Below are positions 4,201 to 64,000 of a stretch of DNA of 64,000 nt, piece by piece. Numbering within the stretch: position 1 is the stretch's first letter; each line of letters opens with the position of its first letter. The notes under the pieces were generated by a model. That model was given only the letters and a program-made list of their open reading frames with translations. It was not told the DNA's origin and searched no databases. The translations under genes and the position numbers were made by a program. The stretch lies in NCBI RefSeq assembly GCF_030063415.1, contig NZ_JASITA010000034.1, positions 1 to 64,000 on the forward strand. Direction: 5' to 3'. Source of the stretch: Streptomyces sp. H27-C3. GTDB lineage: Bacteria > Actinomycetota > Actinomycetes > Streptomycetales > Streptomycetaceae.

Positions 4201-7200
4201 GACCGCAGCCGGATCTCCTTCACCTGACCGTCGAAGTCGCCGAAGGTGCTGTCAGTCGCGGTCGTCGAGGTGGCGTACACGTACTCCAGTACCCGGCAGC
4301 CCTTGGTGGACGGATCTGCCTTGCACGCCGCAACCGTGGTGGCCGATGTAGGGGCGAAGACCCGCTCAGGACGGGCGAGTTCCTTTCCTCCAACCGTGAC
4401 AGTCTTGGACTCGATGCTGGTGGTCGACTCGGTCTGGCCATCGTTTTTGGTACTGCTGATCTGCCAGGTCGTGGCGCCGCTGGGCTTGGTGAACTCGGTT
4501 GAGGTGCCCTCGGTGTCATACAGGGTGAAGCTTCCGCTCGTGCTGCCCTTGAGCGTCAGTGACTCCGAACCGGGTTCTGGTATCCAGCCGGTCTTGTCCG
4601 CAGTGGCGGCGAAGTGGATCGCAGAGTCGTCCGACGTCACCACGTCCACCGCAGTATCGGAAATCCTGCGAAGGTAGCTGTAGTCGGACTCAGTGAGCTC
4701 AGCAGTCGTGCCGCTGACCCACTCCTTGCCGAAGATGGACACCTGGCCTTCCTGCGTTGCACTGGGGGTGCGGGAGGAAGCAGAGCGTTCCACGGACAGG
4801 CCGAAGTTCGAGACGTCGGTCTCGGACAGCGAATAGTCGCCCGTGAGGAGGTTGAGCGAACCTGGGCCAACGGCCTCGGCCGCAGCTCCGTCGGCGTTGC
4901 GGTCCACAACGACCGTCAGCGGATCCGTGCTACCTGACGCACTGCTTGGGCCGGTGAAGTCAGCCTTGATCTCGACGCTGCCGTCAGGGTCGACGGTGTC
5001 AGTGGTATTCCAGATCAGAGGGGCGTTCTTGCCGTTCGTCAAAGTGACGGGCCATGACGTCAGAGCCTGCCCGTCCTTCGTGACATGGCCAGCCGGGATC
5101 TGGATCCACGCGTCGGCCGCAGACCGGCGCCACGAGAAGGACACGGAGTCATATTTGGCGGCGTCGGCCTCGGCTACTAGCGACAGACGGCGTGCTGTGC
5201 GCTCTCCTTCGCTTGGCTGGACGAACCCACCCTGGCCGACGTGGAAGTCGTATTCCACAGCCTCGGACTTATTGTCCGCCTTGTCGACGGCGCGGGCCCG
5301 AAAGGTGTGGTTACCGTCACGGGACGGCGTGACGGAGATGCCCTTGGCAGCAGCAGAACCAGCTGTGGCGACCTTGGTCCAGGTCACGCCATCCAGTGAC
5401 CACTCGAGCCAGTTGTGGTCGGCCGCGGGCGGAGTCACGTTGAACGTTCCGGTCTGGCCCGCGCCCTTGACCCAGGAGCCAGACGGATAGTCTGTTGACG
5501 TGATTCCGGTCGGGGCAGAGGGGGCGGATGTGTCGACCGTAAAGGTCTTCCAGGCCGACCAGCCCGGGTTGTAGCTGGTGCCGTCATACGGACTGGTGCG
5601 GAACTTGTAGGTCTTGCCATTGGCCAGGACCGTGGCGGGGACGGTCACCGAGGCGACCTTGCCGGAGGGTACGTACGGGGAGACGATGACGTCGCCGGCC
5701 TGGGTGTTGGTGGCGTTGTCGAATATCTGGAAGGTGCCGTTGACCTTGTCACCGTTGGCGTCGACGAAGGTGTCGCGCAACGTGGGCGTTGTCGTGTTTA
5801 CGGTGTAGGCGCCGCCGTAGGAGAAGTACGGCGGGCCGGCCTCCTGTTTGGTGCCGGTCCGCGGCCGGTAGTTGTAGTTGACCACCAGCTTGGGCGGGTT
5901 CGAGGCGGCGTTGGCGGAGTTGACCCGCTTCCACTGCGCGGTATCCGTTTCACTTGTGGCGCGCAGGCCCATGTGGCCGCGGGTGGCCTTGGCCGAGGCC
6001 CATTCCTGGACCAGGGTGTCGATGTCGGCGTTGATCCAGCCGTCCGGGGCGGTGGTGCAGACAGGGTTGCCCTTGGTCTCGGTGGAGGTGGCCTTCTTCG
6101 CCGTCATGGCCGGCCGGTTCGTCCAGCGGCTGGCGGTGGTGGATGCGGGTGAGGACCAGACTTCCCACGGCTGTGCTGTGCACGCGGTGTTTCCGGAGTG
6201 GAAGTTCCACAGGCTCAGCTTCGCGTCCAGGATCAGCGCGTCCTGGATCGGTTCGGTGTTCCAGGAAATGAAGGACTGCGCGGTGCGAGGCGTTCCGTCG
6301 CCGTTGGTGGTACCGGGGTTGCCGAGGTCAAGCTCGGTGTCGGCCGACCAGTCGACGGTCTCCCCCTGCTGGACGTAGGTGTCGAAGACATTGGATAGCG
6401 CCGAGGTGGATGGATCGACTGTGACCGGGTACTTGGTCTTCTGGTCAGCCAGGAACTCGGCGTCCGGTGTGACGACGAGGTCGATGGAGGAGCCCTTGAT
6501 GACTGCCTTCATGCCGACCTTGACCCGGCGGGTGTGCTCACCGGAGGACGGATCCACGGTGGCGTCCCACATTACGGGGGCCGGCATGACTGCGGTCTTC
6601 TTGCTCTTCTTGTCGGTGAACAGCACGCTGCCGTCGGCCTGCTGCTTGGCCTTGAGGCCCTTGGTCTTCAGCGGCAGCGTGTACGAGAAGCCTTCGGCCG
6701 TCGGCTTCTTCTTGATCTCGACGAACTGCTCGAAGCCGGTACGGGTCGCCTCAACGACGACGTCCGCGCCGGGAACGGCCTCGGCGTATTCAGCCCGCGT
6801 GCCGTCCAGCTTCGGGGTCGGCAGGCCTCCCTTCCACTGCAGAGTGATCTGCTGGTCACCCTCACCGAGGGTGACCAGGTCGACTGCCTTGCCCGCCTGA
6901 GACGCCTTGAGCGAGGTGGCACGTGTGCCCGTCTTGCCCGAGAGCCTCAGACCCCCGGGGTGCGCCTTCGGCTCGACCGCACCAGACTCACCGGTCACCA
7001 GGTTCAGGTCGACATCGCGCCATCCACCGGTGGCATCGTCCTTGAATCGGACGGGACCCGCGGCAATCTCGGTGGTGAGGGAACCATTCTTGTTCACCCA
7101 CGTCGTGGAGGTTTCAGTGCGCTCGGAGAGCGCCTCCACCCGCTTGCCGGACAGGCGGGCCGCCACTCGGGCCGAGGGAATGTCGGCTGCCTGGGTCACC

Positions 7201-7370
7201 CCCGGCTTCGGCGCAGCTTCCTGGGCCTGGCTCTGCGCCGCGAAAGCGGAACTTGTGCCGTCGAGCATGGTGACGGCCACGGCCAGGGAGAGACAGCCAG
7301 CAATGTAGCGGCTGCGCCCCCCGGCCCAAGGCTGTTCACGCCATCGTGGCGCGAACGAACGTATCTTCAT
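1203..7370 (-). CDS. secreted Rhs/YD-repeat polymorphic toxin-like protein
   Basis: This protein has 2055 residues from the ATG at 7370, which has GAGGAA just upstream; an in-frame ATG at 7394 has no such site. Residues 1-45 form a signal peptide ending AFA/AQS. About 320-500 is a DNRLRE-type domain (FDTYVQQG to KLVVNYNYRP), followed by Ig/fibronectin-like segments. YD repeats run roughly from 1070 to 1750. The Rhs-associated core (YGWLGAEQ, GARLYDSATGRFLQADP, MYDLNGKW) ends near 1965. The last ~90 residues are a variable tip with a hydrophobic segment (KCAYAIFGVVIGFTAWGWAL), a Lys/Arg-rich stretch and a second hydrophobic patch. Rhs shells encapsulate C-terminal toxins used against competitors. 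No known nuclease motif is visible, so a membrane-acting tip is my inference. Confidence 0.85.
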   Translation of the reverse strand: MKIRSFAPRWREQPWAGGRSRYIAGCLSLAVAVTMLDGTSSAFAAQSQAQEAAPKPGVTQAADIPSARVAARLSGKRVEALSERTETSTTWVNKNGSLTTEIAAGPVRFKDDATGGWRDVDLNLVTGESGAVEPKAHPGGLRLSGKTGTRATSLKASQAGKAVDLVTLGEGDQQITLQWKGGLPTPKLDGTRAEYAEAVPGADVVVEATRTGFEQFVEIKKKPTAEGFSYTLPLKTKGLKAKQQADGSVLFTDKKSKKTAVMPAPVMWDATVDPSSGEHTRRVKVGMKAVIKGSSIDLVVTPDAEFLADQKTKYPVTVDPSTSALSNVFDTYVQQGETVDWSADTELDLGNPGTTNGDGTPRTAQSFISWNTEPIQDALILDAKLSLWNFHSGNTACTAQPWEVWSSPASTTASRWTNRPAMTAKKATSTETKGNPVCTTAPDGWINADIDTLVQEWASAKATRGHMGLRATSETDTAQWKRVNSANAASNPPKLVVNYNYRPRTGTKQEAGPPYFSYGGAYTVNTTTPTLRDTFVDANGDKVNGTFQIFDNATNTQAGDVIVSPYVPSGKVASVTVPATVLANGKTYKFRTSPYDGTSYNPGWSAWKTFTVDTSAPSAPTGITSTDYPSGSWVKGAGQTGTFNVTPPAADHNWLEWSLDGVTWTKVATAGSAAAKGISVTPSRDGNHTFRARAVDKADNKSEAVEYDFHVGQGGFVQPSEGERTARRLSLVAEADAAKYDSVSFSWRRSAADAWIQIPAGHVTKDGQALTSWPVTLTNGKNAPLIWNTTDTVDPDGSVEIKADFTGPSSASGSTDPLTVVVDRNADGAAAEAVGPGSLNLLTGDYSLSETDVSNFGLSVERSASSRTPSATQEGQVSIFGKEWVSGTTAELTESDYSYLRRISDTAVDVVTSDDSAIHFAATADKTGWIPEPGSESLTLKGSTSGSFTLYDTEGTSTEFTKPSGATTWQISSTKNDGQTESTTSIESKTVTVGGKELARPERVFAPTSATTVAACKADPSTKGCRVLEYVYATSTTATDSTFGDFDGQVKEIRLRSTASGATSATAKAVQSYAYDASGRLRQTWDTQISPALTTKYSYDSAGRVIQVTPPGELAWSFTYGKAGSSSAAGDGMLLKASRAALKQGTAATIEGEAVTSVVYDVPLTGTSAPYKMGASNVTAWGQSDVPTDATAVFPADSVPAAHAGSSLGSGDYNRATVHYLGTSGRTVDKAAPGGHIATTEYDRFGNTVRELTGANREVAVGTSANDIATRSDLGIADLPTAERAELVSTRTVFDVKGTRELEEYGPLRRVDLTADLKSGSTILVGSGTSVTARSWTVNSYDEGRPTDGSAVVKDQITKVITGAQVREHPGVQGESREVQTVYDWAKGMPTKRIEDPAGLAIAETTEYDAQGRETKVIQPGGNGTDATTRITAYWSATGTGACSGRPEWADMLCSTGPAGAITGGGSNPSQLPVKTIEYDWWGLAAKTTETANNSTRTTTVATDAAGRVNSVKITGGVGQTAPETNAEYNTATGREIKTVSPTGGTLTTVFDNLGRAISYTDADGGVTTTEYDLLNRPVKSGNNIPSTVTYSYDHTAEPRGLVTKAVDSVAGTFTASYDGDGVVVGEKLPGGYALKHSIDPSGTPIDRTYTRDSDSVIVQSDTTTRSIHGQVTSDAQISEQTYRYDAIGRLTSVEDTAETVCTKRTYVFDKRSNRTSRTSATGTPGTDCPTTAGSTTNYTNDSADRQVNTGYTYDAFGRTTAKSGGVTLGYYNNDRIYQETVGSQRQTWKLDGSQRIRSWTVESNSGGTWSQTKAKVNHYDCGCDKPSWTVEDTATGAVTRHVESLGGSLAATTSKTGDTVLQLSDIHGDVAIQLPLDTAKAPTVLDTDEYGNVRADSVPARYGWLGAEQRSGETLSGLSLMGARLYDSATGRFLQADPVTGGGSNAYGYPVDPITMYDLNGKWWWSNNTVWALWKCAYAIFGVVIGFTAWGWALKIRKAVKVIKKVGIKRTYKLLKAFRNKPRRNWKRVAGLIGGAISTFMGISSVQEDCGAVL

Positions 7371-7506
7371 CAGTTCCTCGGTCTCTGGATGCATGTGAAG
7401 ACACCGTGTACGGGCAGTGTCGACCAGAACGGAAACCTATCCGGTGCGAAATGCCGCATAGCGCGCCGAAGTTGACGTAATGATCATCAGAGTTCCAACT
7501 CAGGGA

Positions 7507-46890: not shown

Positions 46891-47026
46891 CTGTCCCGAC
46901 CTCAGCGCTCTCTCGCCGAGGTCAGCTGCCCGCGGACGGCCCGGCCCGCCCTGGCGGCGACGACGGATGGCGATACGTGCTCACCCATGGGGGCGGGGAG
47001 CTGGCCAGGTACGCCGACACGGTGTC

Positions 47027-47947
47027 CGCGCGATCAAGTTCACCGAGCCCGAGCCGCAGAAAGAGCCGAAGAACCTGCGCAAGCTCAGGAAGGCGATCCG
47101 CAAGAAGTGGGGCACCGTCGCCCTGATCGACATCCTGAAAGAGGCCGCCCTGCGCACCGGGATGCTCAAGGCCCTCGCCCCGGCCGGCACCCGGGAGGCG
47201 ATCGACGAGGCGAAGCTCCTGGAACGCCTGCTCCTGATCGCGTACGCCTACGGCACCAACTCAGCGATCAGCTCCGTCGCGTCCGGCGAGCACAAGCACA
47301 CCGAGGAAGAGCCGCGCTACACGGCCCGCCGCTATCTGACCGCCGTCGGGCTGAAGGCCGCCGGCGTCGAGATAGCGAATGCCACCTTCGCGGCCCGCTC
47401 CGAAGCGATCTGGGGCCAGGGCACCACCACCGCAGCTTCGGACTCCACGCACTTCAAAGCCTGGGACCGCAACATCCTCACCGAGTGGCACTCCCGGTAC
47501 GGAGGCCGCGGCGTGCTCGTGTACTGGCACATCGAAAAGGGTTCGATGGCCATTCACAGCCAGCTTCTGAACTGCACCGCCTCGGAGGTCGCCGCCGCGA
47601 TCGAGGGCATGATGCGGCACGCCACCACCATGCAGGCCGAGGGCAACTACGTCGATTCGCGCGGCCAGTCGGAAATCGGGTTCGGACTCACCCGGCTCCT
47701 GGGCTACGACCTGCTGCCGCGCATCAAGCAGATCAACAAGGTCACGCTGTACCGGCCCGGCCGCGAGGACGAGGACAACTACGACGAGTGGGCAGACCTC
47801 CTGACCGACGAGGACAAACGCGCCCTGACCCCGCTGTTCTGGATGCACATCCAGCCTTACGGCGAGGTACGGCTAAATATGGGCCGCCGGCTTCAGCTCG
47901 CCCAGCCCGTCCCGCAGGAGCCAGACCCCGAGCCGGCCGCCGCGTAG
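47027..47947 (+). pseudogene. Tn3-family transposase (TnpA), internal fragment
   Basis: About 306 codons of a protein that is normally near 1000 residues. It starts at IKFTEPEPQKEPKNLRKLRK and contains GTVALIDILKEAALRTG, IANATFAARSEAIWGQGTTT, ASDSTHFKAWDRN (first catalytic Asp), YGGRGVLVYWHIEKGSMAIH, NYVDSRGQSEIGF (second Asp) and LLPRIKQINKVTLYRPG. It ends with LTPLFWMHIQPYGEVRLNMG before a Pro-rich tail. The N-terminal 600 residues and the C-terminus with the catalytic Glu are gone. A strong terminator follows. Confidence 0.85.
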
Positions 47948-53252: not shown

Positions 53253-55532
53253 TCAATGGCCCCCAGCTCCCAGGGGACGAAGGAACCGGCTGGGCTCACC
53301 GTTCCAAGAGATGGTGAGTGCGTCCCGTGCCCTGGTGGCCGCAACGAACAGCAGGGAGCGCGCTCGCTGCAGTTCGCGCCTGTGGCGCAGGCGATCGGTC
53401 CGTTCCCAGGTGTCCACGGCCGAGCGGGGGACCAAGCCCTCCGAGACACCGGCGATGATCATGCAGCGGTACTCAAGACCCTTGAAGCGGTACATGGTGC
53501 CCACGTGCACCCCCTCGGCCCCTCGCGCCCCTTCACCAGTGATCTTCGTGGCCACGATTCCGCGGCGGCCGAGCCGCGCCACCACCTCGTCGACCTTCTC
53601 GTTCGTCGGCACACAGACCGCGACGGACTCGCGCGGGACGTCGTGCCAGGCCTGTACTTGCTCCACCACGAGGTCGAGTTCCTTGTCCCAGCTGTCCGCG
53701 CTCCGCAGAAACGGGCGTCCGCCGTGCAACACCGACCGATATCCGGCGAGGTCATCGGTGCTGCCGTCGAGATCGTCGAAGTCGGTCCCTTCCAGGATGC
53801 CGATCGCGGCGGCCAGGATCTCGCGGGTGGTGCGATAGCTGAGCGTCAGTTTCGCCGAGCGGCCCCGGATGTTGATGCCCAGACTGCCCAGAGTGACCTG
53901 GTTGTCGTAGATCCTCTGGTGTGTGTCACCGACGAGGAAGATGTCGTTGGCCTCCTTCGGGGGCACCATGGCTCGCAGCATCTTCCAGTGCGCGGGCCCG
54001 AGGTCCTGGGCCTCGTCCACGACGATGTGCCGGTAGCGGTAGCGCAGCCAGGCGCCGGTCCCCGACTCCGCGTGGATGTTGCCAGGCCCGCCACGCTCCT
54101 CCTCCTGACGGCGGCGCTCCTCGATCTTCTGCTGGCGGGCCATCTCCAACTGGGCTGCTCGTTCCGCTACTTGACGGTGCGTCTCCAGCCCCTTGACGTC
54201 GAGTCGTTGGGTGAAGCGCTCGGCGAGCTGCCAGATCTCGGCCCGGTCGGGGCGGGTCACGCTGCGGCCCCGCCCCGCCCGCCGAGCCCGGAAGTAGTCG
54301 GCGCGCGACGCCACGGCCTGGCCGAGGATCACCTGGTTCCACTCATCGCACAGGAACTCGGCGTCCCAGCGGCTCTCCCCGGCCTCCACGAGCAGTTGGC
54401 GCCACTCGCGCAGAGCCTGTGTGTCATCGATTCTGCGCTTGGCGTTCCCCGGGTCGGCCTCGCTGACCACACGCGTCGCCAACTGGTCGACATGCAGGAT
54501 GTCGACGCGGGCGAGCGTCTGCGGTCCGCCGAGCGAGAGGAGGCGGGAGCGCAGGTCGGCGGCGAGATTCTTGTTGAAGGTGGTGAAGAGGACCGGCTTG
54601 TTGTGGCCGGGGGGCAGCTGGTCCACGAGGTATTTCACCCGGTGGAGGGCGACAATCGTCTTCCCCGTTCCGGGACCGCCACCCACGCGGGCGGGCCCGG
54701 AGTAAGTGCGTCCCACCAGCCTTTCCTGGGTGGGGTGGAGGAATACCTTCCACCGGCCGAAGTCGCCCTCCTCAAGGATGCTCCGCAGCGACTCGTCATC
54801 GGTGATCACCACGGCCTGCGAGCGGTCGGCCGCCGCCTGCCAGTCCTCGCCGCGGACGCTCTCGGGCGATTCCTCGGACGCGACCGCGACCGGCGCGGTC
54901 ACCTCATCCATGACCTGCTGGTACGGCACCTCGTCGCGCAGACGCAGCAGCACCTCTCCCGTGTGCCGCGGGGCGTATTCGGCGAGTCCGAGCAACTCGT
55001 CGTCCGTGGTGAGCTTGAGGACGATCGGGATCAGAGGCTCGGCCACGCCCAGGTCGGCCAGTTGCTTCGCGGTGTATTCGGCGAACAGCGGGGCGTCGGG
55101 GACGGCTTCCGGAGCGGCCGCTGCGGCACGCGGCACCGGGCCTTCCGTGCCCAGGACGCCGTCCTCCACCACCTGGAGGTCCACATACTCGATCGCACCC
55201 GTGATCTGGTTGATGCCGTACGCGAGCCGGTCGAGGTTGCGGTGGACGTGTCCGCGGTGTTTGACCGAGACAAGCAGCCAGTCGTTGCCGCCCAGCCGCA
55301 CCAGCAGCGCCCGGTACTCGCGGTTGACGCGCGCCGACCACAGCCGCTCGTGCCCCTTGAGCGGCTTGAGGTCGAAGCCCGGCGCCTCGGGATTCTTGCG
55401 GAACTCGTGCTGGAATTTGTAGACCGCCCCGACGATCGCCCGGTCCAGCTTGACGATTTCCTTGTCCGCTTTGTCGAGAAGGCGTAGGGTCGCGCCCGCT
55501 GTCGGCGCGCCGGTGCTGGTCGTGCTGGGCAT
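53253..55532 (-). CDS. UvrD/Rep-type helicase with RelE-like N-terminal domain
   Basis: A 759-residue SF1 helicase. Residues 15-110 look like a RelE/ParE-fold toxin domain (DRAIVGAVYKFQHEFRKNPE, DLKPLKGHERLWSARVNREY, RALLVRLGGNDWLLVSVKHR). The helicase follows: Walker A VGGGPGTGKTIVALH near 280, VLFTTFNKNLAADL, the Walker B HIVVDEAQDLGPAHWKML near 505, LVGDTHQRIYDN, LTLSYRTTREIL, GTMYRFKGLEYRCMIIAG near 685, and LLFVAATRARDAL. The ATG overlaps the stop of the giant helicase by one base (TGATG), so the two are coupled and probably work together. Pairing two helicases with no metabolic neighbours suggests nucleic-acid defence or repair; that is inference. Confidence 0.88.
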   Translation of the reverse strand: MPSTTSTGAPTAGATLRLLDKADKEIVKLDRAIVGAVYKFQHEFRKNPEAPGFDLKPLKGHERLWSARVNREYRALLVRLGGNDWLLVSVKHRGHVHRNLDRLAYGINQITGAIEYVDLQVVEDGVLGTEGPVPRAAAAAPEAVPDAPLFAEYTAKQLADLGVAEPLIPIVLKLTTDDELLGLAEYAPRHTGEVLLRLRDEVPYQQVMDEVTAPVAVASEESPESVRGEDWQAAADRSQAVVITDDESLRSILEEGDFGRWKVFLHPTQERLVGRTYSGPARVGGGPGTGKTIVALHRVKYLVDQLPPGHNKPVLFTTFNKNLAADLRSRLLSLGGPQTLARVDILHVDQLATRVVSEADPGNAKRRIDDTQALREWRQLLVEAGESRWDAEFLCDEWNQVILGQAVASRADYFRARRAGRGRSVTRPDRAEIWQLAERFTQRLDVKGLETHRQVAERAAQLEMARQQKIEERRRQEEERGGPGNIHAESGTGAWLRYRYRHIVVDEAQDLGPAHWKMLRAMVPPKEANDIFLVGDTHQRIYDNQVTLGSLGINIRGRSAKLTLSYRTTREILAAAIGILEGTDFDDLDGSTDDLAGYRSVLHGGRPFLRSADSWDKELDLVVEQVQAWHDVPRESVAVCVPTNEKVDEVVARLGRRGIVATKITGEGARGAEGVHVGTMYRFKGLEYRCMIIAGVSEGLVPRSAVDTWERTDRLRHRRELQRARSLLFVAATRARDALTISWNGEPSRFLRPLGAGGH

Positions 55533-58500
55533 CAGGCCGGCTCCTCGTCGTCGTTCTCGGCCGGGTGGCCGTCTGCCTGGGCCAGCCGGGTCAGGGCGGC
55601 CGCGAGTTCCCCGGCGTCCCACTCCACGGCGGTCCGTACGGTCCACCCCGCTGCCGCGTAGGCACGGTCGCGGTCCCGCGCTTCGGCAACCGCGGCTTCG
55701 TCCTCGTGCTCGGGGGCGAGGACGACACCGATGCGGTGGGTGGACCAGGCCAGTTCGGCGGGCCATGCGGCGTCGCCGAGCTCGAATCCGGCTTCGGGAG
55801 CGGGCACTGCGGACCGAACCAGTACCTCGACGAGTTCGGCGAGCCCGGGCTCCTCCACCAGATAGTCGACGACCTCGTCCCAGGCCGGATCGCGCACGGC
55901 CCCCGTCGCCGAATCCGAGGGCAGCGGGGCCTCAACGTGCGACGACGCCTCCGCAGGTGGTGCCGCGGCGTCCGTCGTCGGCGCTTCCGAATCGGGCTGC
56001 TGTCGCTGTCGCCGGGACTCCAGCCAGCCCGCCCCGCCCGTCACGGCCAGCTCCACCGGGTCGAAGCCCGGCAGTTGACTGGCCGCCAACTGGACGCCGT
56101 CGCCCTCGCCCTCGTTGAGGAACTGGAGCAGGTTGGTCCAGTACAGCCAGGCCTGCCATCGCCTGCGATGGGCGTTCTCGTCGCGACCCAGCGCCTGCGG
56201 ACTGTCGTCGAGCACGGTCAGAGCGGTCCACACCGCGCCCGCCTGCCCGTTGCGCAGATCGAGGGCAACCGTCAGGGGGCATCCGCTACCGTCCTTGGTG
56301 GCCATGACCTGGACGGCACCCTGGCCGCCGGCCAGCCGCTTGCCCTCCAGCGCTTCAGCGATGCGGTGCCCGATCTCGGGCCCGTCCGCCAGGGCTCGGC
56401 TGGTCGCGGAGACCGCGGCGAATCCTGCCAGCGCGCTCTGGGCACGCCGCCGCCACACCCCGTGGTCCGGGGTGCTCAGATAGCCGATCAGCGTCTCGAC
56501 CGGATTCGTCCACACGAAGCGATGCAGGTCACGCGGGTCGTCCCCGTGCAGACGCCGATGGATGTCGGAGGCGGTCTTCTGCGCCGTGTTCTGGTACGGC
56601 ACCCACACAGGATCGGCGGGAGGCTTCGCATCGCCGGTCCAGGCGCGTACGTCGTCCCAGGTCAGCTGGAAGACCTGCCAGCCGTGTCCGGTTCGCAGGC
56701 GCGTCCGCTTGTCGGCGTCGGACGCGATGCGGTTGTGTGCGGGGCTCGCGTGGTAGCGGTAGCCGTCCAGATAGACGGCGACCCGCTTCCGGTCGTCGTC
56801 CAGGCTGCGGAAGACCACGTCGGGCACGGTGAAGCCGAGGTCGGTCTGCGTCTCCATGCGCCAGCCGCTGACCTTGCCGTCCGGGGCTGTGAACCGCAGC
56901 GTTGTATCGCGCTCGCCGTCCGGCGTCTGTGCGGTACGCACACTCACGTCGTCGACGCCTTCGGCCCAGGCGAGGAGCCCCCGGCGGAACAGCGCTTCCA
57001 GCTCGCTCTCAACCTGCTGGACGAGACTGATGTCCCCGGTCGTCTCGGCCTCCTCGATGCTCCAGGCGTCGCCGGTACGGCCGAGGAGTTCACCGAGGAT
57101 GTCGAGGGCGTGCTCGCGCGAGACCAGTTCGTACTCGCTGTTACCGACATGCCGCAGCAGGCAGCGGTGGCAGGCGGGGCGCTCCTCACCGACACACGGG
57201 CACCGCTCGATGACCTGGCGGGCCCGGGTCAGCACGTCGTGCATCCCGTCGGGTCCCGCGAGCCGGTGGAGATAGCCGGTGCCGCCGGGCAGCGAGTCGT
57301 ACAGCACGAGGAAGTGCCTGCGGACGTCGCTGCCGGGCTCGGGCATCGAGTCGGTGACCACGGCCAGGTGGTCGGGGTCGCCGCCGTAGCTCTGGGCGAT
57401 GCCCGCGAGGAGCAGCGCCTTGAAGGAGGCCAGGCGCTCTTCGGTGTAGGCGGTGACCGCGGGGATGAGGATACGGAGCGCCTCACTGCGCAGCTCGTGG
57501 GCGAGCAGCAGTTTCACGCCCTGCTGTGCGGCCTTCGTCTCGCCGAGCCCGTCGCGCAGCCGGGGGCACCACGGGCGGTGGTACTTCGTGGCCCGAGGGG
57601 TGCCGAAAGCGTCCTGCTGTCCGGCGTGCGCGGCGGCGGGTCCCCCGTCGGGGTCCGCGTATCCGCAGGAGTCGCAGACCCAGAAGGGGTTGAGTCTCAC
57701 CTGGCGTCCCGCGAAGGCGTCCTCAGCCCCGGTGTCCACGCGGGAGGTGCCGACGTTGATGTGCCGGATCATTGCGTGCCGGGTGAACTCCCAGCCGAAG
57801 GTGGCCTTCTTGTGCTTCCATCCCGCCTCGATGTGCTCCCGCGGAATGTCCACGGCGGGAACGACGGTGTAGTGGCGCCGCTCCCGCTCGTCGGTGTCGT
57901 CGCGTACGCGGATGTCGTCCCGCTGGTCGCGGGCCATCACGCGGTGGGGCACCAGGACCTTGTGCAGGCATCCGACATCGCCGATAGCCGGTGACAGACA
58001 GCGTGGGCAGGCGGTCGAGTCCTGTTCCGCCTGCTGCGTGCGGACGTGCCCGCAGTCGGGGCAGACGCGCCACCACAGCCACGACGGGCGGTTCGGACTG
58101 CCGATGTCGAGCCCGGTGACGCGGTGCTTGTAGCCCTGTACGTAGTAGTGGTTGCCGGGTGCGAGGTCGGTCAGGGCCAGGCGTGCCGACCGCTCGTACC
58201 TGAGTACCTTGCTGTGGTGCTCGGGCTGTCCGTCCTTGCCGTCCTCCCGCCAGGTGAGGGTGGCTTCGAGCTCGGTCAGCGAGTCGACGAGGCTGTAGTT
58301 GGGCAGCAGTCCGAGGTCGACGAGCGTGCCGTGCGCGGTGCTGCGGCTGATCTCACTCGCGTGCCGGGACACGGCTCGCCGTTCGGCCCGCAGCTCCCTG
58401 CCCTGCCGTTCGTGGTCCGGGTCACCGGCGACCAGTTCCTTCAGCGCCGCGTCGATCGACGTGATCCGGTGCCGCATCTCGCCGCGCCGGTCCTCCCACT

Positions 58501-61500
58501 GAGTGCGGGCGTCGCCCAGGGCATCGGCGAGACCCCCGGTCGCGTACGTACGCAGTTCCTCGGCCGCCCGCGGACTGACGCCCGTGCCCTTCGCCTCGTC
58601 GTACGGCGGGAACAGCAGCAGGAACGAATCGACACGGTGCGTGCCCGCGTCAAGCGCGGCCTGCTGGAACTCGGGCAGCCACGCGGACGGGCCGAACAGC
58701 TCGGTGGCCAGGCGGGGCATCGGGCCGAGCGCGTCTCCGCCACCGTCCGGCGCGGGCAGGCGTCCGGCGCCGAGCAGATCGAGGAGGTGTGCGAGGTACT
58801 GGCGGCGCAGGATCTCGCTCGCGGAGAGGAAACAGCCGGGCGGCTGGATGTCTCCGGCGATCATCTGCCGGGGGTCGTCCAGGTAGTAGCGGTCCCGGGG
58901 GCCGCGGTCGACCATGGTCAGCAGGTAGGCGTTGCCGGTGGCACGGCCGGCCCGGCCCACCCGCTGCACGTAGTTGGCGGGTCCCTTGGGCAGCGAGGCG
59001 AGGACCACGGCCGACAGGTCACCGATGTCGATGCCGAGTTCCAGCGTGGGGGTGCAGGACAGGACCTGCGGGTTGGCGTAGTGGGCCTGGACGCCCGCGC
59101 GGAACGCCTTCTCCACGGCTTCGCGCTTGGGGCGGCTGAGGGTGCCGGTGTGCTCCGCGGTGTTGATGGTGAAGACGCCCGCCTCGCGGTACATCCGCCG
59201 GTAGAAGTCCTGGGTGAAGTCCCGGCGCCGTACGCCGCTCTCCAGGTCCTGGCCGGTGCGCAGCAGTCCGCCGCAGCGGTAGCGGGGGCACGGCTGTCCG
59301 TGCCACTGGTCGGCCAGGGCGGGGTGGACGGTCTGTTCCCAGGAGCAGACCGGGCAGTGCGCGGAGGCGTCGGCCACCCGGTCGTCGGCCAGCTTGCGGA
59401 CCTGTACGTGGCCGGGCTGGAGACCGTAGACGCGGGTCACCCCGTCCTTGGCGGTACGGGCGGACAGCACGCCCGCGTCGACGAGCGCGGGCAGCAGCCG
59501 TACGAGGAAGGCGTTGGCGGCGTCGGGGCGCAGGCCGAGGCTCCGCCGGGTCCAGTCCTGGTACCAGCCGAGGCGTCCGGTGACCACGTCGAAGTCGTCG
59601 CTGCCCTGCTTGGGGCTGCCGAGCAGGAACGCCGGGGCGGAGACACCGGGCGGGAACGCCGGCATGCCCGTCTTGCGCCCGCCCCAGACGAGCCAGCGCC
59701 GCACACCCGCCTCGTTCAGCCAGCCGTCGAGCCAGGCGTGCCGGATGGCGCCGCGCGTGCGCAGTCGTTCGAGGAGGCCGCGCACGTGCCCGACCCAGCG
59801 GTCCGGTCCTGGCAGGGAGCCGTCCGGCAGCGCGATGTCCCCGGGGGTGGTGTGCAGGAGTTCACGGACGATCTCAGCGACCGCGTCCGGGTCCTGGAGC
59901 GGGACGTCCGCGGCGACGGTGCGCGTCAGTTCCAGGGTGCGGCCCTGCCGGGACCTCAGCCCGAATTCCAGCACCGCCGCGAAGGCGAGGCGCTGGGCGA
60001 TGAGTTCCCAGGTGGCGCGGGAGCCCTGGCTGCGCCCGGACAGCAGGGTGTCGACGCCGCGCACGACGTGCAGGTCGGGCGGGATCACCGCGGCCTGGAC
60101 GGCCTTGCTGTCCACGACGTCCGCGATGAGGTCGGCGGCCAGGTCGCTCAGCGCGATCGGCTCGTCCTCGTCGATGCGGCTGGCGAGCAGGGAGCGCAGC
60201 GAGAAGGTGTACGAGCGGTTGGCGACGTATCCGGCGCGGTGGGCGGCGTCCTGGACGGAGTCGTTGAAGAGGAGGGTCTTGTCCTCCTTCAGGTTCTTGT
60301 CGAGTTCGCCGCCCGTGAACAGCTGGGTGATGGAGGCGGCGGCGAGCGCGGCGAGGCCCGTACCGAGGTAGCGGATGGCGTTGAAGGTGCGGCAGGCCGG
60401 GCACTGGTCGCCGCTCGCCGCCCGGTCGTCGCCGAGGTCCGCCCAGACGAATGCCGCGTCGTGCAACGGCTTGGCCAGGTGCGGGCCTTCGCCGTCACGG
60501 GGCTGATCGAAGTCCGTCTCGCGCGACATCGGCCGCACCCGTCCGGTCAGCCCGTCGAGCACCAGCACGGTCGGTCCGCTGCGCTGCTTCTCGGCCACGA
60601 AGGCCGCGTCGTACGCCTGTTGCGGGGTCGCCGCGATCATGTTGCGGACGCGGCTCTTGTCGCGGCCGACGGACGCCCGGCGGATCTTCGTGGCGTTCAT
60701 GTCGAGCTCCGCCGGGTCCGCCTCCGGGGAGAGCGCCGCCCAGCCGGAGCGGCCGCACTCGCGGCAGAAGACCGCAGGCAGGAACACTTGCGCGCGCGGT
60801 GGCGCGCTGTCGACCGCGGGGGCGGCCGGGGCCGCGTCGCCGTCAGGGGCGAGAGAGTCGTCATGGCCACCGGCAGTACCGGCGGCCAGCCTGCCGCCCG
60901 TGGCGACCCGCTCGTCGTCCCACCGGAACTCGGCCCTCGCCGCACTGATGCCACGCAGCACCCGGGACACGGAGCGCACCCAGTGGTGCACCTCGATCGA
61001 CAGGAGCGGGCGGGTGGGGTGCTCGGGGTCGCGGGCCGTCGAGAGCAGGGCGATGTAGCGTGCGAGGGCCCGGACGGCGACGGCCGGGTTCTGCTGGACC
61101 GCCACGCCCCAGTGGTAGGCGTAGCGCGGCAGGACGTCCATGACCTCGGCCATGGTGCGCGGGCGGCCGTCGAGGATCTCCAGGACGGCGGCGGTCAGCC
61201 GGTGCCGGCGCAGCTGTCTGCCGAGCTGCGCCGCGTCCAGCCCCGTCTTGCCGGTGAAGGCGGCGGCCAGCTGGTCAAGGGCTGCGGGGTTACCCGTGGG
61301 ATCGTCGAGGCCCGCCACCTCGTCGGGGGGCGGGAAGGGCAGCCTGAAGTCGCTGTTCCCCGCGAAGTCCTGGGCGCTGCGCCGGTCCTCTCCCACGACG
61401 GCGTCCGGTGTGAAGGGCACGCCGAACACCTGCTCCGCCACGTCCAGCATCGACCCGCCCGCGGCGCCCGGCGCGCCCTCGCCCAGGGTGGCCGAGGTGG

Positions 61501-62329
61501 CAACGGGGCAGACCGGACCGAGCGGCCGTCCCGGCTCGTTCAGGTCGGTGACGGCGCCGAGCCGGCGCAGCAGCATGGCCACGTCGGTGCCCTGGGCGCC
61601 GTCGTACGTGTGGAACTCGTCCAGGACGACGTAGGCGAGCGCGGAGCCGCCCGGTTCCTGCCAGAGTCGCTGGTCCTCGGGCCGCTGGAGCATCAGGTCC
61701 AGCATTTTGTAGTTGGTGATCAGGATGTCGGGCCTGGTGCGCCGGATCTCGTCCCGGTCGACCGCGACGCGCGGGTTGGCCTGCTTGAACTCCTTGGACG
61801 CCTTGTCGCCGATGTAGAGCGCGGCCTGTACGCCCGCGTCCCTGAGCCGGGCGTCCCGGGGGTTGTCGAGGTGGTTGTTGATGCGGTGGGCCTGGTCGGT
61901 GGCCAGCGCGTTCATCGGGTAGAGGAGGACGGCCTTGACGCCTTCCCTGCCGGCCTCGCGCTCCCTGCGGCAGTGGTCGAGGAGCGGCACGAGGAACGCC
62001 TCGGTCTTGCCCGATCCGGTGCCGGTGGTCACCAGCGTGGGCCGGGCGGGACCGTGCAGCGTGGAGAGGCGTTCCCAGGCCCGCTCCTGGTGGCGGTGGG
62101 GGTGGAAGCCACGCGGCCACCAGGTGAGGTGTCGCTGCCAGTCGTCGTTCTCGGCCGGGCGGAAGGGGGTGCGGATACGCAGGTACGGGCCGCGGAAGAT
62201 GCCGTCGTCCGCGTCACCGAGGAACTGCTCCAGGGCGCCGCGGGTGCTCTCGTCCGCCAGGGCGTACGTCGTCGACAGGTACTGACTCAGGCTGTCGCGT
62301 ACCTGCTCGGCGGCGAGGGTTGGTCGCAC
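55532..62329 (-). CDS. giant SF2 helicase with DUF1998-type and nuclease-like domains
   Basis: A 2265-residue protein from the GTG at 62329, which has AGGAGG seven bases upstream; a GTG at 62377 has a weak site. Helicase motifs are LVTTGTGSGKTEAFLVPLL (near 100-118), ILITNYKMLDLML, VVLDEFHTYDGAQGTD, ATSATLGEG, CTPTLELGIDIGDLSAVVLA and QRVGRAGRATGNAYLL (near 1125). Cys pairs near 1010, 1430 and 1555 suggest zinc ribbons. A DUF1998-type Cys cluster, RCPCVGEERPACHRCLLRHV, is near 1710. At about 1850 VAVYLDGYRYHAS to TGHGWQVFQLTWDDV resembles Vsr/DUF559-type nucleases. Size and order recall DruE of Druantia and other DUF1998 defence helicases. Operon with the downstream UvrD-type helicase. Confidence 0.85.
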   Translation of the reverse strand: MRPTLAAEQVRDSLSQYLSTTYALADESTRGALEQFLGDADDGIFRGPYLRIRTPFRPAENDDWQRHLTWWPRGFHPHRHQERAWERLSTLHGPARPTLVTTGTGSGKTEAFLVPLLDHCRREREAGREGVKAVLLYPMNALATDQAHRINNHLDNPRDARLRDAGVQAALYIGDKASKEFKQANPRVAVDRDEIRRTRPDILITNYKMLDLMLQRPEDQRLWQEPGGSALAYVVLDEFHTYDGAQGTDVAMLLRRLGAVTDLNEPGRPLGPVCPVATSATLGEGAPGAAGGSMLDVAEQVFGVPFTPDAVVGEDRRSAQDFAGNSDFRLPFPPPDEVAGLDDPTGNPAALDQLAAAFTGKTGLDAAQLGRQLRRHRLTAAVLEILDGRPRTMAEVMDVLPRYAYHWGVAVQQNPAVAVRALARYIALLSTARDPEHPTRPLLSIEVHHWVRSVSRVLRGISAARAEFRWDDERVATGGRLAAGTAGGHDDSLAPDGDAAPAAPAVDSAPPRAQVFLPAVFCRECGRSGWAALSPEADPAELDMNATKIRRASVGRDKSRVRNMIAATPQQAYDAAFVAEKQRSGPTVLVLDGLTGRVRPMSRETDFDQPRDGEGPHLAKPLHDAAFVWADLGDDRAASGDQCPACRTFNAIRYLGTGLAALAAASITQLFTGGELDKNLKEDKTLLFNDSVQDAAHRAGYVANRSYTFSLRSLLASRIDEDEPIALSDLAADLIADVVDSKAVQAAVIPPDLHVVRGVDTLLSGRSQGSRATWELIAQRLAFAAVLEFGLRSRQGRTLELTRTVAADVPLQDPDAVAEIVRELLHTTPGDIALPDGSLPGPDRWVGHVRGLLERLRTRGAIRHAWLDGWLNEAGVRRWLVWGGRKTGMPAFPPGVSAPAFLLGSPKQGSDDFDVVTGRLGWYQDWTRRSLGLRPDAANAFLVRLLPALVDAGVLSARTAKDGVTRVYGLQPGHVQVRKLADDRVADASAHCPVCSWEQTVHPALADQWHGQPCPRYRCGGLLRTGQDLESGVRRRDFTQDFYRRMYREAGVFTINTAEHTGTLSRPKREAVEKAFRAGVQAHYANPQVLSCTPTLELGIDIGDLSAVVLASLPKGPANYVQRVGRAGRATGNAYLLTMVDRGPRDRYYLDDPRQMIAGDIQPPGCFLSASEILRRQYLAHLLDLLGAGRLPAPDGGGDALGPMPRLATELFGPSAWLPEFQQAALDAGTHRVDSFLLLFPPYDEAKGTGVSPRAAEELRTYATGGLADALGDARTQWEDRRGEMRHRITSIDAALKELVAGDPDHERQGRELRAERRAVSRHASEISRSTAHGTLVDLGLLPNYSLVDSLTELEATLTWREDGKDGQPEHHSKVLRYERSARLALTDLAPGNHYYVQGYKHRVTGLDIGSPNRPSWLWWRVCPDCGHVRTQQAEQDSTACPRCLSPAIGDVGCLHKVLVPHRVMARDQRDDIRVRDDTDERERRHYTVVPAVDIPREHIEAGWKHKKATFGWEFTRHAMIRHINVGTSRVDTGAEDAFAGRQVRLNPFWVCDSCGYADPDGGPAAAHAGQQDAFGTPRATKYHRPWCPRLRDGLGETKAAQQGVKLLLAHELRSEALRILIPAVTAYTEERLASFKALLLAGIAQSYGGDPDHLAVVTDSMPEPGSDVRRHFLVLYDSLPGGTGYLHRLAGPDGMHDVLTRARQVIERCPCVGEERPACHRCLLRHVGNSEYELVSREHALDILGELLGRTGDAWSIEEAETTGDISLVQQVESELEALFRRGLLAWAEGVDDVSVRTAQTPDGERDTTLRFTAPDGKVSGWRMETQTDLGFTVPDVVFRSLDDDRKRVAVYLDGYRYHASPAHNRIASDADKRTRLRTGHGWQVFQLTWDDVRAWTGDAKPPADPVWVPYQNTAQKTASDIHRRLHGDDPRDLHRFVWTNPVETLIGYLSTPDHGVWRRRAQSALAGFAAVSATSRALADGPEIGHRIAEALEGKRLAGGQGAVQVMATKDGSGCPLTVALDLRNGQAGAVWTALTVLDDSPQALGRDENAHRRRWQAWLYWTNLLQFLNEGEGDGVQLAASQLPGFDPVELAVTGGAGWLESRRQRQQPDSEAPTTDAAAPPAEASSHVEAPLPSDSATGAVRDPAWDEVVDYLVEEPGLAELVEVLVRSAVPAPEAGFELGDAAWPAELAWSTHRIGVVLAPEHEDEAAVAEARDRDRAYAAAGWTVRTAVEWDAGELAAALTRLAQADGHPAENDDEEPA

Positions 62330-62415
62330 CCGTGGTCCTCCTGGTATTCCGTCTTGTGTGGGCCCGTCCTGGGCCACGCCCTACCGTAATAGCGCCGCGG
62401 CCCTATCCGGCCCGG

Positions 62416-62565
62416 TCAGACGTCGACCTTGCGTCCGACGTAGGCAACACGCAGAGCACGCCGGCCGCGCAGAAGCCGGAAGTGCGTACGTCCAGGCTTC
62501 GGCAGGAATTCGGAGTGCCGGTCGAAGAGCTGCTGTGTGCCGTCGTCGTCGGTGAACCAGCACAT
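62416..62565 (-). CDS. 49-residue basic protein
   Basis: A short gene beginning 5 bp after the DUF262 remnant's stop and ending 86 bp before the giant helicase start. The protein starts MCWFTDDDGTQQLFDRHSEF and ends RALRVAYVGRKVDV; it is basic and soluble. GGGGGTAGAGGG immediately upstream of the ATG can serve as ribosome site. I know no family. It may be a small accessory of the helicase operon. Confidence 0.5.
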   Translation of the reverse strand: MCWFTDDDGTQQLFDRHSEFLPKPGRTHFRLLRGRRALRVAYVGRKVDV

Positions 62566-62570
62566 GCCCT

Positions 62571-62925
62571 CTACCCCCGGAAGAACTCCGCCATCGCGGC
62601 GAACCTCGTGCGTAGCTTCTTCGTGTCGCCGGTGGCGAAGGAGATGGCGCGGTCGAAGTCCCACGTCCTTCACCAGTCCGAAGAACCCGCTCAGCACCCT
62701 GTCACTCGACGCTACCAGCGCTTCACGCTCGTGATCGTCCAGAGTGGCGAGATTGACCGCGACCGTCTCGAACAGGGCCTTATTGATGGGCGAATTGCCC
62801 TTTCCACCCCGCCATTCCCGGAACGCGTGATCGCCGAAGAGGTCCGTCGCGCAGCGCATCGCCCTGCGGAACTCCAGGGCCACTGCCTCCCGTTGTTCCG
62901 CGTTCAGTTGGTTCACACGATGCAT
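62571..62925 (-). pseudogene. DUF262 (GmrSD-type) protein C-terminal remnant, frameshifted
   Basis: From 62925 the frame reads NAEQREAVALEFRRAMRCAT, LFGDHAFREWRGGKGNSPIN, KALFETVAVNLATLDDHERE, then GFFGLVKD. After a single-base shift near 62665 it continues WDFDRAISFATGDTKKLRTR and FAAMAEFFRG to the TAG at 62571. This is the end of a DUF262-type protein of about 350-600 residues; the catalytic N-terminal ParB/Srx-like domain is missing. GmrS/GmrD-type DUF262 proteins are type IV restriction enzymes. Confidence 0.75.
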
Positions 62926-62954: not shown

Positions 62955-63401
62955 TCAGCGCGGCAGGTCCAGTTCGGCGCGGACCGTCTTGCCGACGGAG
63001 CGGCGGTCGAATACGTCCCACCGGTCGGCCAGCGCCTCGACGAGCAGCAGCCCCCGGCCACTGTCCGCGCCGGGCACCGGGGCCGCGATGGCGCCGGGCC
63101 CGGCGGGGCGGCGCTCGCCGCGCGGGTCCGACACGTCGATGCGGAGGGTGTACGCGTCGAGGCTGAGCCGCACCTCGAAGTCGCGGCCGGGAACGCGGCC
63201 GTGGGTGACGGCGTTCGCGGCGAGCTCGGCGACGAGGAGCGCGGCGATGTCCGAGGCGTCGGAGTCGTACGGGATGCCCCAGGCATCCAGCCGGTGCACG
63301 GCGAGGTGGCGGGCGAGGCGGGCGCCGCGCGGAGTGGAGCTGAACCGCTGCGTGAACACACGTACGGTAACGGGGATTTGGGAAGCGGGGCTTGGCGTCA
63401 T
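62955..63401 (-). CDS. RsbW-like ATP-binding protein
   Basis: A 148-residue GHKL ATPase domain: FTQRFSSTPRGARLARHLAV, ALLVAELAANAVTHGRVPG (N-box), LRIDVSDPRGERRP (G1) and PGADSGRGLLLVEALADRWD (G2), ending GKTVRAELDLPR. It is divergent from an XRE regulator with DUF5753 across a 160-bp gap containing a long palindrome. This arrangement is very common in Streptomyces (whiJ/abaA-like and conservon-type loci), where the small ATPase and HTH protein act on development or antibiotic genes. The target is unknown. Confidence 0.85.
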   Translation of the reverse strand: MTPSPASQIPVTVRVFTQRFSSTPRGARLARHLAVHRLDAWGIPYDSDASDIAALLVAELAANAVTHGRVPGRDFEVRLSLDAYTLRIDVSDPRGERRPAGPGAIAAPVPGADSGRGLLLVEALADRWDVFDRRSVGKTVRAELDLPR

Positions 63402-63471: not shown

Positions 63472-63561
63472 TACGGAGAGTAGACAGGGCCGGCGACTGA
63501 ACGTAACCATGGGTGCGTTGGGAGTGGGTCCGCGGGGCGGGTGTACTGGAGGTGTCCTCGC

Positions 63562-64000
63562 ATGACGGACGGTACGGGCGGGTCGCCGGGCTGCAGTGAG
63601 CCGGAGGTGTCGGACAGTCTCAAGACATTCGGCGAGGTCTTCAAGGCTTTCCGCAAACGGGCGGGCCTGACCCAGGAGGACTTCGCCGAGCTGGTCCCGT
63701 ACTCGGTCCAGACGGTCGCCAAGATCGAGCAGGGCCGCCGCTTTCCGCAGCCGGACTTCGTGGGGCGGGCGGAGGAAGTCCTGGACGCGTTCGGGGCGCT
63801 GCGGGGTGCGGCGCGGCATCTGTCGCGGCAGCCGGGGCTGGCGAGTTGGTTCCGGCAGTGGGCGCGGTTCGAGGCGGAGGCGGTGAGCCTGTACACGTAC
63901 GAGTGCCGGGTGGTGCCGGGCCTGTTGCAGACGGAGGCGTACGCGCGGGCGGTGTCGTTCAGCGTGCCGCCGCTGCCGGACGAACAACAGCTGAGCGAGC
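63562..64000 (+). CDS. XRE-family regulator with DUF5753 domain (partial)
   Basis: The gene runs off the right edge; 146 residues are visible. GGAGG precedes the ATG. Residues 20-75 are the HTH (LKTFGEVFKAFRKRAGLTQE, VPYSVQTVAKIEQGRRFPQP). From about 95 the DUF5753 effector domain begins (ASWFRQWARFEAEAVSLYTY, VVPGLLQTEAYARAV). These regulators usually pair with a DUF397 protein and an RsbW-like ATPase; the latter is present on the other side. Confidence 0.88.
   Translation, partial: MTDGTGGSPGCSEPEVSDSLKTFGEVFKAFRKRAGLTQEDFAELVPYSVQTVAKIEQGRRFPQPDFVGRAEEVLDAFGALRGAARHLSRQPGLASWFRQWARFEAEAVSLYTYECRVVPGLLQTEAYARAVSFSVPPLPDEQQLSE

Follow-up and report, generated by a model that had tools for sequence, protein, structure and literature searches.

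The helicase genes armC and armD near the end of the stretch studied here most probably belong to an ARMADA Type II anti-phage system, in a kinase-bearing actinobacterial variety. From sequence comparison we give this assignment a probability of about 0.93. The stretch, called the window below, comprises bases 1-64000 (64,000 nucleotides) of contig 56 in the genome of Streptomyces sp. H27-C3 (8.02 Mb, 128 contigs), and the operon continues past its edge. The gene order, on a single contig, is kinase, armA, armB, a regulatory and cargo slot, armC, armD. The features are as follows, contig positions up to 64000 being also window positions.

53253-55532, minus strand: armD, encoding a 759-residue RelE-UvrD (GajB-like) helicase, with a stop-start overlap (TGATG) with armC
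55173-55520, minus strand: RelE-family domain of ArmD, about residues 5-120
55532-62329, minus strand: armC, encoding a 2265-residue YprA/DruE-like SF2 helicase-nuclease
56435-57124, minus strand: C-terminal stretch of ArmC, residues 1736-1965, with a predicted Vsr/DUF559-type nuclease-fold domain
57158-57421, minus strand: MZB/DUF1998 zinc domain of ArmC (PF09369, 50.8 bits, own-genome profile match)
62416-62565, minus strand: decayed C-terminal tail of nsnC, the "49-residue small protein"
62571-62925, minus strand: decayed and frameshifted C-terminal part of nsnA, DUF262/GmrSD_N family
62955-63401, minus strand: HATPase_c_2 protein, inside the armB-armC slot
63541-64000, plus strand, continuing past the window edge to contig position 64413: XRE/DUF5753 regulator, antisense
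After the XRE/DUF5753 regulator: DUF397-like open reading frame (ORF), read by eye from WFKSSYSG-type repeats
64719-70223, minus strand, outside the window: armB
70225-73215, minus strand, outside the window: armA
73295-74437, minus strand, outside the window: Ser/Thr kinase gene, 380 residues

Assignment to ARMADA Type II

ARMADA Type II, a system related to DISARM and Druantia, was introduced in 2025, with experiments in E. coli (Bell et al., PMC12458937). Its parts are ArmA (BrxHII/RapA-like), ArmB (PglX-like), ArmC (YprA-like, with a Vsr-type nuclease) and ArmD (RelE-UvrD). A strict gene order is stated for ARMADA, and phage protection in E. coli needs all four Arm proteins, with no signs of cell death (PMC12458937).

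In the present locus the same order is found, starting with homologues of ArmA, a BrxHII/RapA-like helicase, and of ArmB, a PglX-like methyltransferase. The distance from armB to armC is 2393 bp, with other genes in between. The local identities to the ARMADA proteins of E. coli ATCC 8739 are 36.3% for ArmA, 36.1% for ArmB, 33.8% for ArmC and 37.5% for ArmD, the last over 520 aligned residues, with the E. coli copy cut at 557 residues in the compared stretch. The residues mutated in the published E. coli work (strain NCTC 12900; PMC12458937) are conserved in 8/8 cases, namely, in the numbering of the present proteins, K142 and D242 of ArmA, G670 and N1168 of ArmB, K108 and D237 of ArmC, and K291 and D506 of ArmD, the ArmC and ArmD pairs being the Walker A and Walker B residues, respectively. 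The enzymatic inventory and its conservation are thus established by homology and sequence.

An earlier note, made from the letters of the window, had proposed a possible defence operon in which a giant helicase recalling DruE has a UvrD-type partner. This proposal holds, and all four genes of ARMADA II occur here in the expected order. The armC-armD pair delineated there is correct but incomplete, as ArmB, ArmA and the kinase at contig positions 64719-74437 complete the operon.

The resemblance to Druantia pointed out in the same note requires closer consideration, because the locus could be a Druantia variant in which a DruE helicase has a new UvrD partner. DruE3 is indeed the best PADLOC model for the giant protein (302.7 bits); the release used, PADLOC 2.0.0 (2023), is older than the description of ARMADA, which is why a DruE model comes out nearest. 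Two solved structures of helicases of ca 2000 residues, which we take to be DruE, also match ArmC, as does the solved YprA structure 6znp. However, ArmC aligns end to end with the ArmC of E. coli ATCC 8739 at 644 bits, compared to 126 bits (best segment) with the DruE-type helicase encoded in the same island of that strain, and homologues of ArmA and ArmB stand upstream in order. No match to DruH was found among the window and contig proteins scanned, some neighbours lying outside the scan. On the basis of the pairwise scores and the partner genes, membership in Druantia was rejected, and we consider the variant very improbable. The helicase is thus related to DruE, as had been noted, but its neighbours define the system as ARMADA Type II, and the DruE assignment suggested by the PADLOC search is overturned by the ArmC comparison.

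Another possibility is that the locus is a relic, that is, an ARMADA operon that is decaying along with a guest system, Menshen, and whose protection is already gone. The Menshen scraps listed above, the antisense regulator within the operon and a Tn3-type transposase fragment ca 5 kb away would fit such a scenario. Against it stand the five intact reading frames, the conserved catalytic residues and the ratios of nonsynonymous to synonymous substitution (dN/dS). Compared with the relative L052/G241, from which the locus differs by 12-26% in protein, these ratios are 0.17 for ArmC, 0.15 for ArmD, 0.18 for ArmA, 0.32 for ArmB and 0.28 for the kinase. The five core genes are under purifying selection (dN/dS 0.15-0.32), the ratio being an average over the divergence to which a very recent loss is invisible. 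A relic is in our view improbable.

A DNA-repair operon, made up of a YprA/MrfA-like helicase and UvrD and having no role in defence, was also considered. In Bacillus, YprA/MrfA serves as a helicase in repair (PMC12458937), and YprA is, as mentioned, among the solved structures that match the giant. This option is the least probable of all, in view of the patchy presence of the locus (62/392 Streptomyces genomes), the ArmD relatives on 10 plasmid records, the accompanying methyltransferase, the domains resembling nucleases and toxins, the defence cargo of several kinds, and the proven anti-phage function of the E. coli homologue (PMC12458937).

Compared with ARMADA Type II as described in PMC12458937, the locus is alike in the ArmA-ArmB-ArmC-ArmD order, the RelE N-terminus of ArmD, the conservation of the mutated residues and, according to the structure model, possibly also the Vsr-like C-terminal domain of ArmC. 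It differs by the Ser/Thr kinase gene at the head of the operon and by the regulators and guest-system scar that split armB from armC. The operon core is already published; the kinase before armA and the armB-armC cargo slot go beyond the text of PMC12458937, in whose main text (supplements not covered) the words kinase, Menshen, DUF262 and nested are absent. A listing of the kinase or the slot in the supplements would weaken the claim of novelty.

The helicases ArmC and ArmD

The start codon of armC is GTG, with GGAGG immediately 5' of it. Both the armC and armD frames are intact, and they overlap by one base. The DEAD, Helicase_C and MZB/DUF1998 domains of ArmC are recognised by Pfam, and ArmD is UvrD/GajB-like according to both PADLOC and Pfam, so that the giant protein and its partner had been read correctly from the letters, the RelE-fold N-terminus of the latter being unmentioned there. 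This N-terminus adopts a RelE toxin fold in an AlphaFold2 model (alignment of 21 sequences, mean predicted local distance difference test score, pLDDT, of 69), for which Foldseek returns Thermus RelE as the best match (E 1.2e-5) and 17 matches in total at E<=0.001.

The two genes are adjacent in 28/28 named relatives (in L062 the contig stops within the partner gene). The conserved pairing beside defence genes in many genomes, which the earlier note had singled out as a supporting sign, is thus indeed observed. A scan for sigma-70 promoters and terminators upstream of armC gave none, such a scan being uninformative for a high-GC actinomycete.

The stretch of ArmC between residues 1736 and 1965 contains a conserved Q, a conserved D and a (D/E)GxRxH motif, and its model has a mean pLDDT of 71.5. 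In a second look with VIA-align, nuclease folds head the list of matches to the C-terminal model: Z is 8.5 over 97 residues to 3r3p (a homing-endonuclease catalytic domain) and 8.4 over 94 residues to 3hrl (an endonuclease-like protein, presumably DUF559), values that are suggestive only. A sequence-profile search of the domain against the PDB gave nothing useful. The model is suggestive of a domain like the Vsr/DUF559-type endonucleases.

The kinase upstream of armA

A kinase gene is found within 2 kb upstream of armA in 48/48 Streptomyces loci, counted after deduplication and where 2.5 kb or more can be seen. In the wider set used for the ArmA tree it precedes armA in 60/60 scorable Streptomyces loci, three more being unscorable. 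Beyond this genus the proportions are 7/7 in family f17, 7/13 in family f18 and 0/8 in five further families, which gives 74/88 scorable actinobacterial loci. The kinase state changes once on the ArmA tree; this tree was built quickly under LG+G4 and came with long-branch warnings, and its change counts are blind to gain versus loss. The ATP-loop, HRD and DFG motifs of the present kinase are intact. When phages were searched with it, there were partial matches only, below 35% identity, among the matches listed. A Microvirga plasmid, which carries ArmA-D in a row, is silent on the kinase, as only 436 bp separate its armA from the point where the circular record begins.

A second operon in the same genome, on contig 55, is relevant in this context. 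Its genes, in transcriptional order, are:

L067:6713-13093, minus strand: kinase-YprA helicase fusion (2126 residues)
L067:3700-6714, minus strand: DpdE/DrmD-like SNF2 helicase
L067:2-3700, minus strand: PglX/DrmMI-like methyltransferase

ARMADA Type I is described with this gene order. Of 199 Streptomyces genomes searched, 34 had a match, and at 30/38 places the match spanned kinase and helicase in one open frame. By analogy, the fusion in the sister operon is the best sign that the kinase may belong to the machinery.

The armB-armC cargo slot

A search with the N-terminal part of ArmC gave 66 matching places, spread over 62/392 Streptomyces genomes. The addition of 28 named loci brings the total to 94, or 88 after deduplication, and ArmB is visible upstream in 76. 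It is important to note that the counts are raw and uncorrected for relatedness, that gaps are distances between tblastn alignment ends, and that the relatives' genes come from a crude GC3-based ORF caller, some of the "other" slot ORFs being spurious.

Among the 76 loci, armB and armC are contiguous in 26, eight have a gap of 1.9-2.2 kb without recognised cargo, 17 hold Menshen alone, 11 hold Menshen and other ORFs (the Menshen of L050 being degraded), and 14 have other contents, the scar of the present locus included. Where the gap exceeds 600 bp (50 loci), 46 loci have a recognised antisense XRE gene, 41 a HATPase gene and 27 an almost complete NsnB. When the class-level set is included, for which 42/45 ArmC places were used (G425, G721 and the second G614 place being left out), the armB-armC gap is larger than 600 bp in 55/112 loci, distributed as 54/81 in Streptomyces, 1/7 in family f17 and 0/24 elsewhere. 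The corresponding numbers are 1/91 (603 bp) for the armA-armB junction, with 0/37 among the split loci, and 1/42 for the armC-armD junction. Insertions are restricted to the armB-armC junction, and the cargo slot is a Streptomyces feature. The ArmA tree, on which the slot state of the present locus was set by hand to Menshen, shows at least 7 changes of slot content.

In total, 27 distinct slot protein stretches were scanned against PADLOC, Pfam or both, and 7 gave no match there. Besides Menshen, the recognised cargo comprises HEC-01A/B, MkoA-like helicases with or without a caspase domain, Beta_protein (PD-Lambda-2_C-like), GmrSD with a DrmD-like helicase and HSP70, a Fic/VbhA pair and an AbiEi-type protein. 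An HSP70-NYN protein (G376), a CHAT protein (G306) and an RNase-A-type toxin domain with a HEC-01 pair (G017) are also placed in the slot on the basis of XRE or HATPase genes, ArmB being out of view in these three cases. A family of ca 530 residues occurs antisense to armC in three slots (L079:12673-14262, L116:11200-12789 and G352). The one member scanned had zero Pfam or PADLOC matches, and the family is a candidate for a new defence or regulatory gene.

As for the regulators, we take the HATPase_c_2 protein to be AbaA-like and the XRE/DUF5753 protein to be WhiJ-like. Taken together, the XRE, DUF397-like and HATPase genes of the slot recall the whiJ-bldB-abaA paralogue clusters of Streptomyces (PMC10294661).

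Backup effectors embedded in BREX have been described (PMC12839542), as has BREX with BrxU (PMC8565348). Both those systems and the present one are methyltransferase-based and have other defence modules inside or beside the operon; in the present case, however, ARMADA is the host, and the modules are found at a single junction, in most cases together with XRE and HATPase regulator genes. By this analogy, the slot would carry the known BREX principle of embedded backup modules over to ARMADA.

Menshen and its remains

Menshen (NsnA-NsnB-NsnC) is intact in the slot of relatives. In L036, for example, the armB-armC stretch contains NsnA, NsnB and NsnC with PADLOC scores of 427.7, 375.4 and 356.7 bits, respectively. 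The window keeps only C-terminal scraps of NsnA and NsnC. Namely, 16% of NsnC, its C-terminal end, is left in the 49-residue ORF, and 28% of NsnA, likewise C-terminal, in the frameshifted DUF262 piece, while ca 2.04 kb between the two scraps is gone relative to G241. As direct queries, the 49-residue ORF finds nothing in Pfam or NCBIfam and the 87-residue NsnA piece nothing in Pfam; a search for NsnB in the rest of the genome gave no match at E<=1e-10. A genuine small protein was rejected for the former, since it aligns to the NsnC end in relatives, and a stand-alone type IV enzyme for the latter, since it aligns to the NsnA end of their Menshen. The small protein proposed earlier as a member of the operon is consequently a pseudogene scrap, and the DUF262 gene, rightly seen as a frameshifted remnant, belongs to the Menshen guest and not to a separate type IV enzyme. 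To judge from these alignments, the guest was lost by deletion in this strain, with the five core genes intact. A separate decay of the same module is seen in L050.

NsnB is present in 25/392 Streptomyces genomes, and in 16/25 of these it shares the strand of armC and lies at most 10 kb upstream of that gene. In 2/25 (G131, G338) it follows ArmB and an XRE gene, with armC off the stretch. ArmC is thus present in 18/25 NsnB genomes, compared to ca 4 expected if the two were independent (uncorrected for relatedness). On the NsnB tree, the state inside or outside the slot changes at least 4 times, in a scoring where the Menshen on C13 of G131 was counted as outside despite the preceding ArmB and XRE genes and G338 was left uncounted.

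Other known systems and neighbouring genes

The giant YprA-family helicase-nuclease is common to the present locus and Druantia Type III (DruH-DruE); the partner genes differ, the similarity to DruE is much weaker, and DruH is not among the scanned proteins. DISARM class 1 shares the SNF2 helicase (DrmD-like) and the PglX-like methyltransferase (DrmMI-like), whereas here the helicase and the DUF1998 part are fused and a UvrD-RelE partner is present; no DrmC-type nuclease was found among the proteins scanned. With BREX type 2 / Pgl the locus has in common a Ser/Thr kinase in a PglX-containing phage-defence operon. PglW, however, is a large NERD-kinase multidomain protein (PMC12839542), compared to the 380 residues of the present kinase, and no PglZ was found among the proteins scanned.

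A RelE-UvrD-like gene also occurs away from any ArmC on contig 55 of the same genome (L066:5818-13659). It adjoins a McrC-family protein (PF10117), an AAA/DUF4357 protein and a further large frame, and by its gene content this is a McrBC-type set with its own UvrD partner. On a Tsukamurella plasmid (L166), an ARMADA-like run in which ArmC is apparently split into two annotated genes follows a helicase/DUF1998 pair and has additional UvrD genes on both sides. A Streptomyces plasmid (L169) has an ArmD relative after two helicase-annotated genes, its record ending shortly upstream.

Within the window, the Tn3-type transposase fragment, ca 5 kb from armD, occupies positions 46967-47947 and matches positions 1-224 of 389 of the DDE-domain profile. 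An RHS-repeat protein of 2063 residues is encoded at 1203-7394 on the minus strand, with a codon-position-1 GC content below that of most neighbours. On the other side of the operon, past the kinase, the contig continues with the following gene:

75773-79999 (end of the stretch compared; the gene runs on), minus strand, outside the window: jetC of Wadjet type II (PADLOC, 1446.7 bits)

Proposed mechanism

By homology, ArmA would be a RapA/SNF2-type translocase, and ArmB (PglX/Eco57I-like) would methylate host DNA and/or recognise targets, the methylation possibly serving as the self mark. ArmC would be a YprA-family helicase whose putative Vsr-type C-terminal domain cuts the foreign DNA onto which ArmC has loaded, and the presumed effector. 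The RelE domain of the UvrD-type helicase ArmD may cleave mRNA. Phosphorylation by the kinase could license or trigger the complex. The slot might place armC-armD under WhiJ/BldB/AbaA-like control and host interchangeable second-layer modules, Menshen among them, that would act when ARMADA fails or is inhibited.

Actinobacterial ARMADA can be read as a two-layer, phosphorylation-controlled immune operon, which in Streptomyces would have an evolved docking slot between armB and armC. The kinase would be its fifth core part, a separate gene in Type II and fused to the helicase in the Type-I-like sister system. The interchangeable guests (among them Menshen, HEC-01, caspase-helicase, GmrSD and Fic/VbhA) would be wired through a WhiJ/BldB/AbaA-like switch, by which a phage that blocks ARMADA sets off the guest. 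We put this forward tentatively, with the odds somewhat below even.

A number of observations weigh against these interpretations. No kinase is annotated beside armA in E. coli ATCC 8739, on a Pseudanabaena (cyanobacterial) plasmid or on the Tsukamurella plasmid, 14/88 scorable actinobacterial loci have no kinase adjoining armA, and ARMADA in E. coli functions without one (PMC12458937); the kinase is therefore dispensable for ARMADA in general. Its best PADLOC matches (PD-T4-6) reflect generic kinase similarity. The antisense regulator interrupts the operon, leaving the co-expression of armAB and armCD in question. With 26/76 loci having no insert and 8/76 a cargo-free gap, the slot could be a tolerated insertion site and not a design. 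Menshen also occurs without ARMADA, 7/25 NsnB genomes having no ArmC match at the threshold used, and four of these seven have their own XRE and/or HATPase gene nearby. For the C-terminal model of ArmC, Foldseek gives zero matches at E<=0.001, and a Z of 8.5 is approximately the level that unrelated models attain; the Vsr/DUF559-like segment described in the earlier note is thus backed by VIA-align but not by plain Foldseek.

Some of these points lead to a further scenario, in which the core is ARMADA while the kinase and the slot cargo are bystanders, that is, co-transferred island neighbours with no functional tie. It overlaps with the assignment made at the outset, which concerns the core genes. 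The Wadjet-type jetC next door and the Menshen copies without ARMADA are consistent with it. On the other hand, the position of the kinase is fixed, with no exception in the 60 scorable Streptomyces loci, the kinase is fused to the related helicase of the sister operon, and the other two junctions are spared by insertions. We regard this scenario as unlikely, though far from negligible.

Implications

In E. coli four genes suffice. A kinase whose place is the same in all scorable Streptomyces loci leads to the prediction of a regulatory step, which is open to direct testing. That one junction takes many defence modules amounts to a natural experiment on the layering of immune systems. It also calls for caution, as a short ORF next to genes of this kind may be what is left of a vanished guest system and not a new component. 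At the same time it offers a route to discovery, since anything between armB and armC would be a candidate defence system.

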